Shown one piece after another: positions 41,355 to 53,858 of a DNA stretch of 64,000 bases (the stretch's first letter is position 1; each line of letters opens with the position of its first letter). The stretch is from Thermococcus thermotolerans (GTDB lineage Archaea > Methanobacteriota_B > Thermococci > Thermococcales > Thermococcaceae). The stretch spans positions 868,001 to 932,000 of the forward strand of contig NZ_CP102602.1 in the NCBI RefSeq assembly GCF_024707485.1, in the 5' to 3' direction. Position numbers and translations under genes: made by a program. The notes beneath the pieces are model-generated. The model was not told where the DNA came from and made no database searches. It saw only the letters and a program-made list of their open reading frames with translations.

Positions 41355-44957
<3,603 letters not shown>

Positions 44958-44961
44958 GCCC

Positions 44962-45579
44962 ATGATACGGGTTAAACTGAGGGCCTGGACTGCCTCTTTC
45001 CGTTATCCCACCTTTCAGTCGGGCTACCAGCCAACCCTACCGGTCCCACCGCCTTCAACCATACAGGGGATTCTTTCAGCTGCCAAAGGCGAGCCAGTCT
45101 ACCTGACCGAGCTCCCCTACGTTGGCTACGTCTTCAGGAGCGGGGGAAAGGGCCTTGACCTCGAAAAAATCTACGCCCTTGGAAAGGTCGAGACGGACAT
45201 AATGAGGCGCGAGTTCCTCTACAATGCTGAACTATACCTCTACCTGCCCGATGAGTGGAAGGAACACTTCAGAAGGCCGAGATACCAGCTTCTCCTCGGT
45301 CGTTCGAGCGACGTGGCAACGGTCGAGGAGATAAAGGAGGTTAGCCTTGAGGAGAAGGAAGCACCCGTCGGTGGGACGGTCCTCCCTGTGAACCTTGGAG
45401 TTCCCGGCGTCGTTCACGCCCTCGTTGTCGAGTACGACTACTCGGTAACGCCGAGGAAGGCGAGGCTCGTTAGGCCCTTCGTCGTCCTTCCGTTCCCAAG
45501 GGGCAAGGCACCGAGGCTGAAGTTTCCCTACGATAAAGAACTCGGTGTCGGGGTCTACCTCCACAGGTGGCACGAATGA
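44962..45579 (+). CDS. cas5: Cas5 subunit (Cas5t)
   Basis: 205 residues beginning with the Cas5 ferredoxin-like strand IRVKLRAWTASFRYPTFQSG and LPVPPPSTIQGILSAAKG. It caps the 5' tag end of crRNA in Cascade. The family is often confused with Cas7 and Cas6 by fold, but the N-terminal pattern and the position fit Cas5. It overlaps cas3 by 4 nt. Confidence 0.92.
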   Translation: MIRVKLRAWTASFRYPTFQSGYQPTLPVPPPSTIQGILSAAKGEPVYLTELPYVGYVFRSGGKGLDLEKIYALGKVETDIMRREFLYNAELYLYLPDEWKEHFRRPRYQLLLGRSSDVATVEEIKEVSLEEKEAPVGGTVLPVNLGVPGVVHALVVEYDYSVTPRKARLVRPFVVLPFPRGKAPRLKFPYDKELGVGVYLHRWHE

Positions 45580-47753
45580 GGGTCTGCTACGCCAAGTTCC
45601 TCCCGCACGATTTCCTTGAGTGCCACACAAACGACGCTATAAACGTGCTGAAGAGCATGAGAAGAGCCTTTAAGTGGCTTGAAGAGTTCTTCCCACGCAT
45701 TTGGGAGCTTTCTTTTTATTCCGTCCTTCTCCACGACCTCGGTAAGTGTGCGAGCGGGTTCCAGAGGGACCCGAGAAAGTGGGGCTACCGCCACGAGATA
45801 CTCTCGACACCGTTTACCTCCTTCCTTAGCCTTCCTGATGATGAGAGAAACCTCGTGGCTCTCGCAATCCTCACTCATCACCGAACCCTCGACGAGATTG
45901 AGGAGGTACTGCCAGGTGGGGAACACCGGGGGGAGTTTGAGGAGAAGGTTGGGGAGCTCCTTCAGAACAGGGACTACATTGAGGGAATTTTCTTCGAGCG
46001 GGTTCCCTACTGGGAGCTGTACTTCTTCGGAAGGAGAAAAGGAATTTTCAATCCTCCAGCGGACTGGATCGAAGGGATTAGGGACTACGACTTCGACTCC
46101 CTGCTCGGCTGGTACGAGCGGAATGCTGGGAAGTACTGGAACGAGCTCCTTTTCCTCCGTGGAATTCTCAACGCTTCAGACCACCTTGCTTCAGCCGGTG
46201 AGCTTGCCGTTCGCTTGCTGTCCGACATAAGAACCGCCGTTGAGTCCCATCTTCCCCCGGAGCACTGGAGGCCCCTCCAAAAAGAGGCGAGTGAAACGGA
46301 GGGCAACTTAATCCTACGCGCGCCGACGGGTTACGGCAAGACCGAGGCTTCTCTCCTCTGGGCCAACCGGAATGCGTTCCAAACCAGGAAAGGAATAGCC
46401 AGCAGGATATTCTACGTCCTCCCATACAAGGCCAGCATAAACGCCATGCACTCGCGCCTTTTGACTCTCTTCCGCGAGCCAGAACTCGTGGGCGTTCTTC
46501 ACAGCTCTGCAGCCTTTTACCTTTACTCCTCCAAGCTGGAATACAAACGCCTCTCCTCGCTCTACAGGAAGATTTATACGCCCCTCAAGGTCACGACGCC
46601 GTTTCAGCTCATGAAACCTTTCTTCGGCGTTGGCTTTCCTGAGATGGGTCTGACGGAGCTGACTGGCTCGCTCCTCATCTTCGACGAGATTCACGCCTAC
46701 GAACCAAACGTCCTTGGGATAATCCTCGCCATGCTCGAACTGCTGAGGGAGAGAAAAACCAAGACCCTAGTGATGACGGCCACACTACCAAAATTCCTTG
46801 AGGAACTCTTGCGCGATATTCTTAAGCCCCGTTTGTTGAGTGTCGAGCCGGAGGAGGCCAACAGGTTTACGAGGCACCGCGTGAACGTCATAGACGGCTC
46901 GATGGACGAGGTTGGGGAGCTTCTCACTGAAGTCCGGGCGGAAGGCCCCGTTCTCATAGCTTGCAATACGGTATCAAGGGCGATTGATGTTTACTCGCAC
47001 CTGCGCGATGATTATAACACCATGCTCCTTCACAGCAGGTTCACCTACGGAGACAGGGAGGAGAAGGAGAGGAAGCTCCTTGTGAACCTAAACGACTACG
47101 ACGTCGTCGTTGCCACCCAAGTTGTGGAAGTTTCGCTCGACATAAGCTTCTCGACGATAATCACAGAACCTGCTCCCCTCGATGCCCTGATTCAGCGCTT
47201 CGGCAGAGTGAACAGGCGGGGATTTGGAGAACCGAGGGACGTTTATATCCTGACGAAGGGGGGCGATGGAGACAAAAAGGTGTATCCGATGGAAGTCGTG
47301 AGGGAGAGCCTCAAACTCCTTGCGGAACTCAACGGAAAGCCCCTTCTTGAATCGATGGTTCCGGAACTCGTTACCAGTGCGTACGAGCCGTTGGCAAACA
47401 AGCTTAGGACGGACGTCATGACTTATCGCGAGCAGGCCCTTGAGCTGTTTAGGAGTCGGAAGCCACTGAGGGGCAGGGAGAGCGAACAGAGGTTCTACGA
47501 GATGTTCCACGGCCTCGAAGCGGTTCCTAGTGTTTATCAGGACAGGGTCCTGGAACTGATTATCCATGGGAGGTCAATCGAGGTCCACCGATATCTCGTT
47601 CCCGTTCCATGGTGGCTCTTTATGAGCGAAAGCTACGCCTTCCATCGTCTTTCCGACAGGGGGCCTGGTAAATACGTTCTCGTTGCGGAGCTTGAGTACA
47701 GCCCCGAGCTTGGCCTTCTGAGAGAACCGTCAAGCGGGGGCGAGGCGCTGTGA
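45576..47753 (+). CDS. cas3: Cas3 HD nuclease-helicase
   Basis: 725 residues from ATG 45576 (overlapping the cas5 stop); a GTG at 45567 is rejected. HD nuclease part: VLLHDLGKCASGF and AILTHHRTLDE. Helicase part: Walker A RAPTGYGKTEASLLWA, DExH-type LLIFDEIHAYEP, motif III VMTATLP, and motif VI IQRFGRVNRRG. It degrades DNA marked by Cascade. HD and helicase are joined in one chain. Confidence 0.96.
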   Translation: MRVCYAKFLPHDFLECHTNDAINVLKSMRRAFKWLEEFFPRIWELSFYSVLLHDLGKCASGFQRDPRKWGYRHEILSTPFTSFLSLPDDERNLVALAILTHHRTLDEIEEVLPGGEHRGEFEEKVGELLQNRDYIEGIFFERVPYWELYFFGRRKGIFNPPADWIEGIRDYDFDSLLGWYERNAGKYWNELLFLRGILNASDHLASAGELAVRLLSDIRTAVESHLPPEHWRPLQKEASETEGNLILRAPTGYGKTEASLLWANRNAFQTRKGIASRIFYVLPYKASINAMHSRLLTLFREPELVGVLHSSAAFYLYSSKLEYKRLSSLYRKIYTPLKVTTPFQLMKPFFGVGFPEMGLTELTGSLLIFDEIHAYEPNVLGIILAMLELLRERKTKTLVMTATLPKFLEELLRDILKPRLLSVEPEEANRFTRHRVNVIDGSMDEVGELLTEVRAEGPVLIACNTVSRAIDVYSHLRDDYNTMLLHSRFTYGDREEKERKLLVNLNDYDVVVATQVVEVSLDISFSTIITEPAPLDALIQRFGRVNRRGFGEPRDVYILTKGGDGDKKVYPMEVVRESLKLLAELNGKPLLESMVPELVTSAYEPLANKLRTDVMTYREQALELFRSRKPLRGRESEQRFYEMFHGLEAVPSVYQDRVLELIIHGRSIEVHRYLVPVPWWLFMSESYAFHRLSDRGPGKYVLVAELEYSPELGLLREPSSGGEAL

Positions 47754-47763
47754 GCTACAACAA

Positions 47764-47780
47764 AAACTATAAAATTTATT
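47764..47780 (+). promoter_or_regulatory. Internal promoter before the ATPase gene
   Basis: AAACTATAAAATTTATT lies between cas3 and the ATPase gene in a sharply AT-rich 57-bp gap. Initiation would be near 47797, about 14 nt before the ATG, which has AGGTGAAGGTG before it. This separates the interference genes from the ATPase-cas4-cas1 unit. Confidence 0.55.
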
Positions 47781-47810
47781 ACATAAAATACTGTTACAGG
47801 TGAAGGTGTA

Positions 47811-48917
47811 ATGAAGGCACCCTTCGTCTATGGGAGAAAAGTGGGCAGGGAACACTTTGCAGACAGAGAGGAAGAGGTTGAGAGGCTCAAAATAGCCATG
47901 ATGAGCGGTCAGAACGTTATCATATACTCACCAAGGCGCTATGGAAAGAGTTCCCTCGTGGGCATTGCCCTGGAGGAACTTGGGAAAAAAGTGTATCCGA
48001 TAGAAGTCGACTGCTCGGGGGTCCTCACCAAGAAAGAGCTTGCCGAGAGAATAAGCTCGGCAGCGATAAGAACATGGAAAGGACGGATAGAGGAGTTCCT
48101 GAGGAAGCTGTTTAAAACAACAACGCCCAGAATCATCATAGGAAAAAGACTCAGCGTGGAGTTTGTTGTGGGAGAGGAAAACACCGCCCTCGAAGAAGCT
48201 CTAAAGTTGCCAAAGCGTCTCGCGGAGATCACAGGAAAGAGAGTTGTGGTCGTTTTTGATGAGTTCCAAGAGGTGAGCAACCTTGGAAAGGAAGTTCTCC
48301 CAAAAATGCGCGCCGAATTTCAGAAACATAAGGGCGTGACCTACGTCTTCGTGGGGAGCAAGCAGGGGATGATGCGTGAGATATTCCAGTCACCCAGCAG
48401 TCCCTTTTACAACTTCGGGATGCACATGATTCTCAAGAGAATCCCAGAGGGGAAGTTCAAGCCCTTCATTGAAAACAAATTCAAGGAGAGTGGGTTTGAG
48501 ATTGACGACGAGCTGATAGACTCCGTGCTGAGGATAACTAAAGGACATCCTCACTACACGCAGATGCTGTGCTACCGACTGTGGTTAAACGCCCTCCTTT
48601 CGAAGAGGGGCGGTATATCCGGGGAAGACCTGGAGAAAGCCCTTGAAGAGATACTCAACGAAACAGCGGAGTTCTTTGAGGAAATGTGGGACTCCCTGAC
48701 GATAAACCAGCGGAGGCTCCTCGTTGCGATAGCGCGGAACGAGAGCGACCTTTACTCAAGGGACTTCCTTAACCGATACGGCTTTGAAAGGGCTTCAACA
48801 GTCCAGGCGGCGTTGAGGGCCCTTAAAGAAAAGGAGCTGATAGTGCGGGAAAATGGAAAATACTTGATAGAAAATCCCCTCTTTGAGCTCTGGATACTCA
48901 AGGTAAGCGAGGGCTGA
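47811..48917 (+). CDS. Archaeal P-loop ATPase (COG1672-like) inside the cas operon
   Basis: 368 residues. It starts APFVYGRKVGREHFADREEEVERL, the usual opening of archaeal STAND-like ATPases. Walker A is YSPRRYGKSSLVG and Walker B is VVVFDEFQEVSN. A sensor-like GHPHYTQMLCYRLW and a C-terminal winged helix (ERASTVQAALRALKEKELIVREN) follow. Such ATPases are common in Thermococcales genomes, often solitary. Here it lies between cas3 and cas4, with its own TATA box and 3 nt before cas4. It is not a known Cas protein. Confidence 0.88.
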   Translation: MKAPFVYGRKVGREHFADREEEVERLKIAMMSGQNVIIYSPRRYGKSSLVGIALEELGKKVYPIEVDCSGVLTKKELAERISSAAIRTWKGRIEEFLRKLFKTTTPRIIIGKRLSVEFVVGEENTALEEALKLPKRLAEITGKRVVVVFDEFQEVSNLGKEVLPKMRAEFQKHKGVTYVFVGSKQGMMREIFQSPSSPFYNFGMHMILKRIPEGKFKPFIENKFKESGFEIDDELIDSVLRITKGHPHYTQMLCYRLWLNALLSKRGGISGEDLEKALEEILNETAEFFEEMWDSLTINQRRLLVAIARNESDLYSRDFLNRYGFERASTVQAALRALKEKELIVRENGKYLIENPLFELWILKVSEG

Positions 48918-51351
<2,434 letters not shown>

Positions 51352-51873: not shown

Positions 51874-53832
51874 GTTGTAATAAGACTCTAGGAGAATTGA
51901 AAGGAGAGCAGGATTGTCGGCAGAGCTTGCAAGAAGGATGTTGTAATAAGACTCTAGGAGAATTGAAAGCTCACTAGGGAGTTGACGAAAGATTTCAATC
52001 TGGAGTTGTAATAAGACTCTAGGAGAATTGAAAGGGCTTTCCCACATCCGGAACTCGCCGGCCTAAATAAAGTTGTAATAAGACTCTAGGAGAATTGAAA
52101 GGGAAAGGTTTATGTGATTGCTGTGGTGTTAGGAATGGTTGTAATAAGACTCTAGGAGAATTGAAAGACGGAGAGGTGGCTATGGGCTTTCCTCTCTCAT
52201 GGATGTTGTAATAAGACTCTAGGAGAATTGAAAGCAATCTCTTTATCAATGTAAAGATTCAACCGGACTTTACGTTGTAATAAGACTCTAGGAGAATTGA
52301 AAGTCACATAGCTGACAGCTCTCTGGTCGCGCTTGCGCCAGAAGTCGTTGTAATAAGACTCTAGGAGAATTGAAAGGATCTACTACTATGACCCAGATGG
52401 GCTCACCACAGACGTTGTAATAAGACTCTAGGAGAATTGAAAGCTTCACTGAGCTCGAAGACTACGACCTCGTCTGGCTCAGTTGTAATAAGACTCTAGG
52501 AGAATTGAAAGAGCATCGACGTCACCAACGTCCCCGCAATGGTTGTGTTGTAATAAGACTCTAGGAGAATTGAAAGGCCTAGACATCGTTGAGCTCGTGG
52601 AAGCGCTCAAGGTTGTAATAAGACTCTAGGAGAATTGAAAGTCCTCCGTGGTGATGGCAACAAAGTCCCCCGCCTCGAGTTGTAATAAGACTCTAGGAGA
52701 ATTGAAAGATGTTGTCGCTCAGCATGATGTTCTTCGTCCCGTCCCGTTGTAATAAGACTCTAGGAGAATTGAAAGTTCGGAGTCATGATGCCCTCGGGGA
52801 AGGGTATATGAGTTGTAATAAGACTCTAGGAGAATTGAAAGGAACCTCCCCTCTTAGGCCAGCGTCCGACTCACGCAGTTGTAATAAGACTCTAGGAGAA
52901 TTGAAAGACGAAGCCTCTCCTTAACCCACCACTTGGGCATGCCTTGTTGTAATAAGACTCTAGGAGAATTGAAAGAGCTCGGTGTATTGTGGCGAGTAGT
53001 TGCTCCAAAAGGTTGTAATAAGACTCTAGGAGAATTGAAAGAAATTCAGTATTGACATACACCCTAATCTCGCCAGCGGTTGTAATAAGACTCTAGGAGA
53101 ATTGAAAGCCGTGAGAAGCCCTTGTAGCGCTTGAGGAAGTGGGTGTTGTAATAAGACTCTAGGAGAATTGAAAGGTGTAGTTGAAGTCAATACCATATGT
53201 CGCCGAGTAGTTGTAATAAGACTCTAGGAGAATTGAAAGAGCTTGAGATGAGGAAGCACATGACTCTTGCAAACCGTTGTAATAAGACTCTAGGAGAATT
53301 GAAAGGCCCATCTCGGTCGAGAGGTAGTCAGCTATCGCACCGTTGTAATAAGACTCTAGGAGAATTGAAAGAAGACTTCAAAGGTTCCCTCTCCTAACCT
53401 AAGCCCGTTGTAATAAGACTCTAGGAGAATTGAAAGCCAAGAGCCTCTGCCTCTCAGTGAGCAAGATGTTCCTCGTTGTAATAAGACTCTAGGAGAATTG
53501 AAAGACGCAGGAATCGGTTGCGATTCGTTTCGAGGCATATCGTTGTAATAAGACTCTAGGAGAATTGAAAGGAGATAAAAGAGCGCCTTGAGGCGACCCT
53601 TGACTGGGTTGTAATAAGACTCTAGGAGAATTGAAAGCTATCACGTCGTCAGCCTCTTCCCTCTTCAAGGACTGGGTTGTAATAAGACTCTAGGAGAATT
53701 GAAAGGAAGGCATTGGAAGAGAGGAACCAGCGCATCAAGGAAGTTGCAATAAGACTCTAGGAGAATTGAAAGTGACTAAAGCCGTCAAGATTTACAAGAA
53801 CAAGTACATGTTGCAATAAGACTCTAGGAGAA
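51874..53832 (+). CRISPR. Type I-B CRISPR array, 30 repeats and 29 spacers
   Basis: The repeat is 30 nt, opening GTTGTAATAAGACTC and closing GAGAATTGAAAG. By reading, repeats 1-28 are identical. Repeat 29 (53743) has T-to-C at position 5, and repeat 30 (53810) has the same change and loses its last seven bases. Spacers are 35-39 nt, with one of 43 (52304-52346). The ATTGAAAG end and the leader on the left show transcription on the plus strand. The decayed right end is the older, leader-distal end. Confidence 0.99.
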
Positions 53833-53858
53833 CAAAACGATGAAAAACCCGGGAAGGG

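Follow-up and report, generated by a model that had tools for sequence, protein, structure and literature searches.

A STAND-like ATPase gene at the head of the CRISPR adaptation operon of Thermococcus thermotolerans: a putative self-regulating switch with a predicted 18-bp operator

The window analysed here is a whole stretch of 64,000 nucleotides of the Thermococcus thermotolerans genome, and all coordinates refer to it. On its + strand the type I-B effector genes cas6, cas8b, cas7 and cas5 (41613..45579) and cas3 (45567..47753, stop codon at 47751-47753), the last effector gene ahead of the boundary, were recognized by profiles. They are followed on the same strand by a gene encoding an ATPase (47811..48917), by cas4 (48921..49430; PF01930, 1.2e-58) and by a type I-B cas1 (49440..50426; TIGR03641, 2.2e-128). 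The cas2 gene lies on the - strand (51094..51351; PF09827, 4.4e-23), and an array search found a CRISPR array of 30 repeats (51875..53840, no strand given). The ATPase gene is an intact ORF of 368 aa ending with TGA at 48915-48917, and the GTG start of cas4 at 48921 leaves the 3-nt gap already reported in the initial annotation of this DNA; the gene start at 47764 given there corresponds to the promoter. The same annotation described the gene as splitting the cas operon. Its position between cas3 and cas4 stands, but it is better read as the gene that opens the adaptation operon, since the effector module upstream varies among related loci while the order ATPase-cas4-cas1 is constant.

The ATPase matches the Pfam family PF01637 (ATPase_2; residues 16-251, 1.1e-13, 52 bits against a cut-off of 33.2); it is putatively STAND-like and carries a winged helix at its C-terminus. 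Walker A (YSPRRYGKS, residues 39-47, 47925..47951) and Walker B (VVVVFDE, residues 145-151, 48243..48263) are both kept in 21/21 aligned relatives, and in the GxP-type motif GHP (residues 245-247, 48543..48551) H246 and P247 are invariant in the alignment. The protein also carries an N-terminal GRExE-like motif, FADREEE, and its Pfam nSTAND1 match is below cut-off. The winged helix (residues about 296-356, 48696..48878) rests on a weak, sub-threshold MarR_2 match (residues 296-347, E=0.00089) and on the AlphaFold model (pLDDT 92.6), which ends in a helix-helix-helix-strand-strand fold at residues 298-353. Both the Walker pair and the winged helix had been noticed at the outset, and membership of a common archaeal ATPase family had been considered there. 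The genome encodes 14 PF01637 proteins above cut-off and the superfamily is therefore ordinary, unlike the subfamily to which this ATPase belongs and the context of the gene.

No Cas model in NCBIfam matches the protein, PADLOC gives only PDC-S01 (2e-5, 47 residues), and only 17 of 61 cas1 modules surveyed carry the gene, in agreement with the earlier view that it is not a recognised Cas protein. Neither TIGR01884 (Csa3) nor a CARF match was found with the Pfam and NCBIfam profiles; NCBIfam gives a weak match to TIGR03015, the XrtA-system ATPase. By sequence and by fold the closest PDB entries are 2qen (PABY2304, TMq 0.70) and 2fna (SSO1545, TMq 0.66), which share the ATPase core and the C-terminal winged helix with the window ATPase at about 22% identity. 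To our knowledge neither protein has an assigned function or a CRISPR link. Next in the fold search are the DNA-binding Orc1/Cdc6 proteins and RuvB, with TnsC further down. Selection on the gene is purifying, with dN/dS of 0.08-0.12, similar to cas1 and cas4.

The initial annotation had proposed that the ATPase has its own promoter, with cas4 and cas1 directly behind it, and this holds. A TATA-like element, CTATAAAAT (about 47767-47775), precedes the gene within a BRE/TATA-like core promoter, AAAAAC-TATAAAAT (47761..47776, + strand), and both are conserved in 17 loci. Moreover, the 57-bp block between cas3 and the ATPase contains phased 18-bp dyads of the form TTACA-N8-TGTAA lying over the TATA box and the start codon. 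The first operator-like dyad, read from the sequence as CTACA-N8-TATAA (O1, 47755..47772), covers the BRE/TATA and has equivalents at -56 in other loci. The dyad scan gave the second, TTACATAAAATACTGTTA, with one mismatch (O2, 47779..47796), and the third, TTACAGGTGAAGGTGTAA, which is exact (O3, 47794..47811) and covers the likely transcription start, the ribosome site and the first base of the ATPase start codon; all three are given on the + strand. The spacer of 8 alone is enriched: 35 such dyads occur in 16/17 ATPase loci, whereas any other spacer gives 0-1. Conservation of the dyad block also exceeds that of the ATPase coding sequence (96% vs 76-86% between loci L103 and L104, 86% vs 68-76% between L108 and L109). 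The genome-wide uniqueness of the exact dyad was discarded as evidence, the single copy at the ATPase start comparing with two copies of a reversed control pattern. A 17-codon frame (47750..47803, + strand), whose GTG overlaps the cas3 stop, runs across the dyad block and, as we read the sequence, matches an N-terminal extension of cas4 seen in loci that have no ATPase.

Among 94 Thermococcaceae genomes, with 61 cas1 modules, an intact ortholog (52-96% identity) is present in 17, always at the boundary between effector and adaptation genes and in one orientation. It lies immediately 5' of cas4 in 16 of these loci, the exception being L105, where another effector module intervenes. The effectors upstream differ: type I-B with a Cas3 of 728-747 aa, a I-B variant with a Cas3 of 932-977 aa in L100 and L110, no recognisable effector in L112, and a Csf2-containing type IV-like module directly 5' of ATPase-cas4-cas1 in a Thermococcaceae MAG (L114:11033-15055, G057). 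Restriction of the ortholog to a single effector type is thus ruled out, and the gene belongs with the adaptation side because what stands upstream of it varies. It is optional, being absent from 44 of the 61 cas1 modules, which are otherwise apparently intact; one more copy, in L116, is a pseudogene inside a decayed cas locus. Relatives of 41-43% identity in the same family, and some decayed fragments (L121, L124, L125), have no cas genes near them. The fragments in L121 and L125 come from two g3 genomes (G065, G071), and that in L125 is still preceded by a dyad, TTACAGGTAAAGGTGTAA. A survey of Thermococcales had been suggested in the initial annotation, which would have taken loci without the gene, together with similar ATPases at unrelated sites and normal acquisition, as contrary to its proposal. 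Run here on Thermococcaceae, the survey had a mixed outcome: it frequently found the first, as the 44 modules indicate, whereas no intact ortholog at or above 52% was found at an unrelated site.

A scan of genome contigs added about 70 relatives beyond the close orthologs, at 31-40% identity, 68 of them with enough upstream sequence. Dyads of the form TTA-N12-TAA, of exactly 18 bp and with perfect 5-bp arms, precede 29 of these 68 genes from outside Thermococcaceae but only 3 of 249 neighbouring promoters on the same contigs, and no comparable peak occurs at other widths; the Fisher value of 4e-19 overstates independence, because the relatives come from MAGs and share phylogeny. Perfect dyads with 7-bp arms were found in 35/68 relatives, against 6.2 from shuffles and 36/251 control promoters. 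The arms vary within the subfamily (TTATAC, TTACGA, TTATGT and TTACAC, with TTACAG in the window), and solo relatives in Thermococcaceae have dyads with TTACTT or TTATTT arms. No such dyad was seen at the promoters of 24 other PF01637 paralogs examined. The geometry travels with one subfamily through unrelated organisms while the arms change, a pattern expected of an autoregulator, which suggests that the protein subfamily itself is the binder of the 18-bp dyads. Covariation between recognition helix and operator arm was rejected as evidence, being inseparable from phylogeny. A single relative of the approximately 70 has clear cas neighbours: in a Methanophagales MAG (L190:108-5839) a 36%-identical ATPase is flanked by cas6 and by the gene of a cas3 helicase, possibly an independent CRISPR association.

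These observations are consistent with an ATPase switch that is portable, regulates itself and stands first in the CRISPR adaptation operon, placing cas4 and cas1 under its predicted operator; we find the balance for and against this reading even. A dimer or oligomer of the ATPase would bind the dyads through its winged helix and cover the TATA box, the transcription start and the start codon, so repressing its own gene and, as transcription reads through, cas4-cas1 as well. Repression is suggested here because the dyads overlap the TATA box and the start. Binding of a signal, of ATP or of a partner might then shift the nucleotide-bound state and release or reverse the control, which would raise the spacer-acquisition proteins at need. 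Outside Thermococcaceae the subfamily consists mostly of solo genes, which would be autoregulated; within Thermococcaceae one clade would have been set before cas4. The points that speak for the switch are the boundary position in 17/17 loci, the changing effectors ahead of a constant ATPase-cas4-cas1, the dyads, the conserved block, the tract shared between loci with unrelated effectors, which starts exactly at that block, the dN/dS, the Orc1/Cdc6-like folds and the lack of a Csa3 match above cut-off in the genome of the window; those against it are the dispensability of the gene, the existence of 18 ATPase-less loci that bear the dyads, and the lack of a link between ATPase presence and CRISPR repeat number (medians 71.5 vs 81, p=0.46). 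More broadly, and with somewhat less than even confidence, we suggest that in both archaea and bacteria this STAND-like family self-regulates through a conserved 18-bp operator geometry, and that in Thermococcaceae it was recruited as an interchangeable ATP-dependent cassette controlling the formation of CRISPR memory, whatever the effector type. The alternatives considered below do not all exclude the switch, and the confidence in each was estimated separately. The initial annotation had left a passenger on one side and a regulator or motor on the other; the regulator is now preferred because of the dyad operators, which were absent from that account.

The gene might instead be an autonomous, autoregulated and mobile ATPase gene, selfish or of stand-alone defence, parked at a recombination-prone junction between effector and adaptation genes, with incidental read-through into cas4-cas1. 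We consider this possible, if rather doubtful. The presence of the ATPase follows no pattern on the cas1 tree, requiring 15 changes where shuffled labels require 15.0 on average, and its distances are untied to those of cas4, cas1 and cas3 (rho 0.09, 0.04 and -0.08), whereas cas4 and cas1 correlate at 0.78; a fixed complex co-evolving with cas4 and cas1 is accordingly not supported by the distances. Between the window and L101 the dS is 0.37 for the ATPase but 0.96 for cas4 and 1.10 for cas1, with dN/dS about 0.1 for all three, and this is one of several pairs in which the ATPase has the lower dS. As its dS in such pairs is below that of its neighbours, the gene was probably exchanged separately from them. 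The exchanged tract starts at position -57, where the gene before it has its stop codon, even where the effectors are unrelated: the window and L100 are 43% identical just upstream and 96% identical across -57..0. In addition, the relatives elsewhere are chiefly solo genes (55/65), nearly all of them away from cas genes, which makes Thermococcaceae unusual in having cas4-cas1 directly behind the ATPase. Nevertheless, a mere passenger would be expected at other sites too, yet all 17 intact orthologs occupy one site in one orientation, 16 of them in tight operon order with cas4, and the purifying selection equals that on cas1 and cas4. Cargo of a transposon, virus or plasmid was rejected, as no relative was found among viral contigs and the listed plasmid matches reach just 24-29%, none of them close.

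It is unlikely, in our estimation, that the dyads are the operator of a trans-acting regulator of the adaptation genes, with the ATPase merely one of the genes controlled. In favour of such a regulator, 18 ATPase-less loci retain TTACA-N8-TGTAA dyads with at most one mismatch ahead of cas4, and Csa3-like CARF regulators adjoin cas1 in some related loci. The genomes of these 18 loci have no intact ortholog at or above 52% elsewhere, and their dyads are either relics of ATPase loss or the site of a different binder; rapid turnover of the ATPase fits the former. Against this regulator, the 18-bp TTA-N12-TAA dyads follow the ATPase subfamily far beyond CRISPR and beyond Thermococcaceae, and the only exact dyad of the genome is at the ATPase start, a count that by itself does not exceed chance. 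Csa3 itself was rejected as the dyad binder in the genome of the window, where no TIGR01884 match exceeds the cut-off (best 36 bits). A mechanical role, in which an AAA+-like ATPase aids Cas4-Cas1-Cas2 in selecting, processing or placing prespacers as TnsC/IstB-type ATPases do for integrases, is very improbable: the tie to the adaptation side whatever the effector type, the presence of TnsC and RuvB among the fold matches and the weak TIGR03015 match agree with it, but the gene is missing from the 44 seemingly intact modules and uncorrelated with repeat number, the subfamily is found mostly outside CRISPR and has the same promoter dyads there, and TnsC and RuvB come far behind 2qen, their TM-scores being low.

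For a self-regulating switch, the nearest functional analogue would be Csa3a of Sulfolobus islandicus, a CARF-wHTH regulator of the I-A adaptation genes that binds imperfect palindromes near or over the BRE/TATA and a start codon and controls cas1 and cas4 (PMC4333418). If the switch is real, both would be winged-helix proteins encoded beside adaptation genes with palindromes at the promoter. However, Csa3a activates, has a CARF sensor and is encoded on the opposite strand, whereas the ATPase is the first gene of its operon, and the dyads differ (TTCNTAACTAAANANGGNNNGAAA for Csa3a, TTACA-N8-TGTAA in the window). The ATPase would thus fill a similar role with another kind of protein. Orc1/Cdc6 initiators (fold matches 2v1u and 2qby) likewise combine an ATPase with a DNA-binding winged helix, but at a TM of about 0.5, in another genomic context and with no origin association seen for the ATPase. 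STAND regulators such as MalT work by an ATP-dependent switch logic, which the ATPase would share. It also resembles them in a DRExE-like N-terminal motif, Walker A/B and a GxP-type motif; it differs in having no long sensor repeats and a winged helix in place of the LuxR-type HTH.

The PF01637 family is already known. Our search of the open-access literature, which it covers incompletely, found no description of this ATPase gene in Thermococcales or in CRISPR adaptation loci. Little is understood of how spacer acquisition is controlled, and Csa3 was the one archaeal regulator of adaptation genes found in that search. The switch, if true, would be a second type, in which an ATPase with a predicted 18-bp operator leads the adaptation operon, and would give a testable handle on the timing of memory writing; Thermococcus kodakarensis, which is genetically tractable, is probably a species in which to use it. 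In addition, the operator rule provides a first clue to the function of a widespread ATPase subfamily, no assigned function having been found for it.

Other features of these loci were also observed. In some type I-B loci, among them L131, L137 and L138, and in L140, the dyad array, as we read the sequence, continues the Cas4 reading frame at its N-terminal end and encodes an extension (MNYTPNCN-like), the GTG of which overlaps the upstream cas3 stop. Divergent genes of ~214-228 aa adjoin cas1 in L107, L134, L141, L145 and L159, with Csa3-like (TIGR01884) matches, some of them just sub-threshold. Between cas1 and cas2 of the window (50386-51101) a PD-(D/E)XK (Cas4-like) gene is apparently frameshifted, giving ORFs of 158 and 79 aa where most relatives have one of ~220-270 aa. 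Finally, in nine loci (L109, at 1096-1896, L112, L101, L106, L159, L160, L162, L167 and L170) cas4 and cas1 are separated by a gene for an MBL-fold hydrolase whose N-terminus is hydrophobic; it weakly matches RNase Z, B3 lactamases and Avs1a, and gives the adaptation operon a second optional gene.
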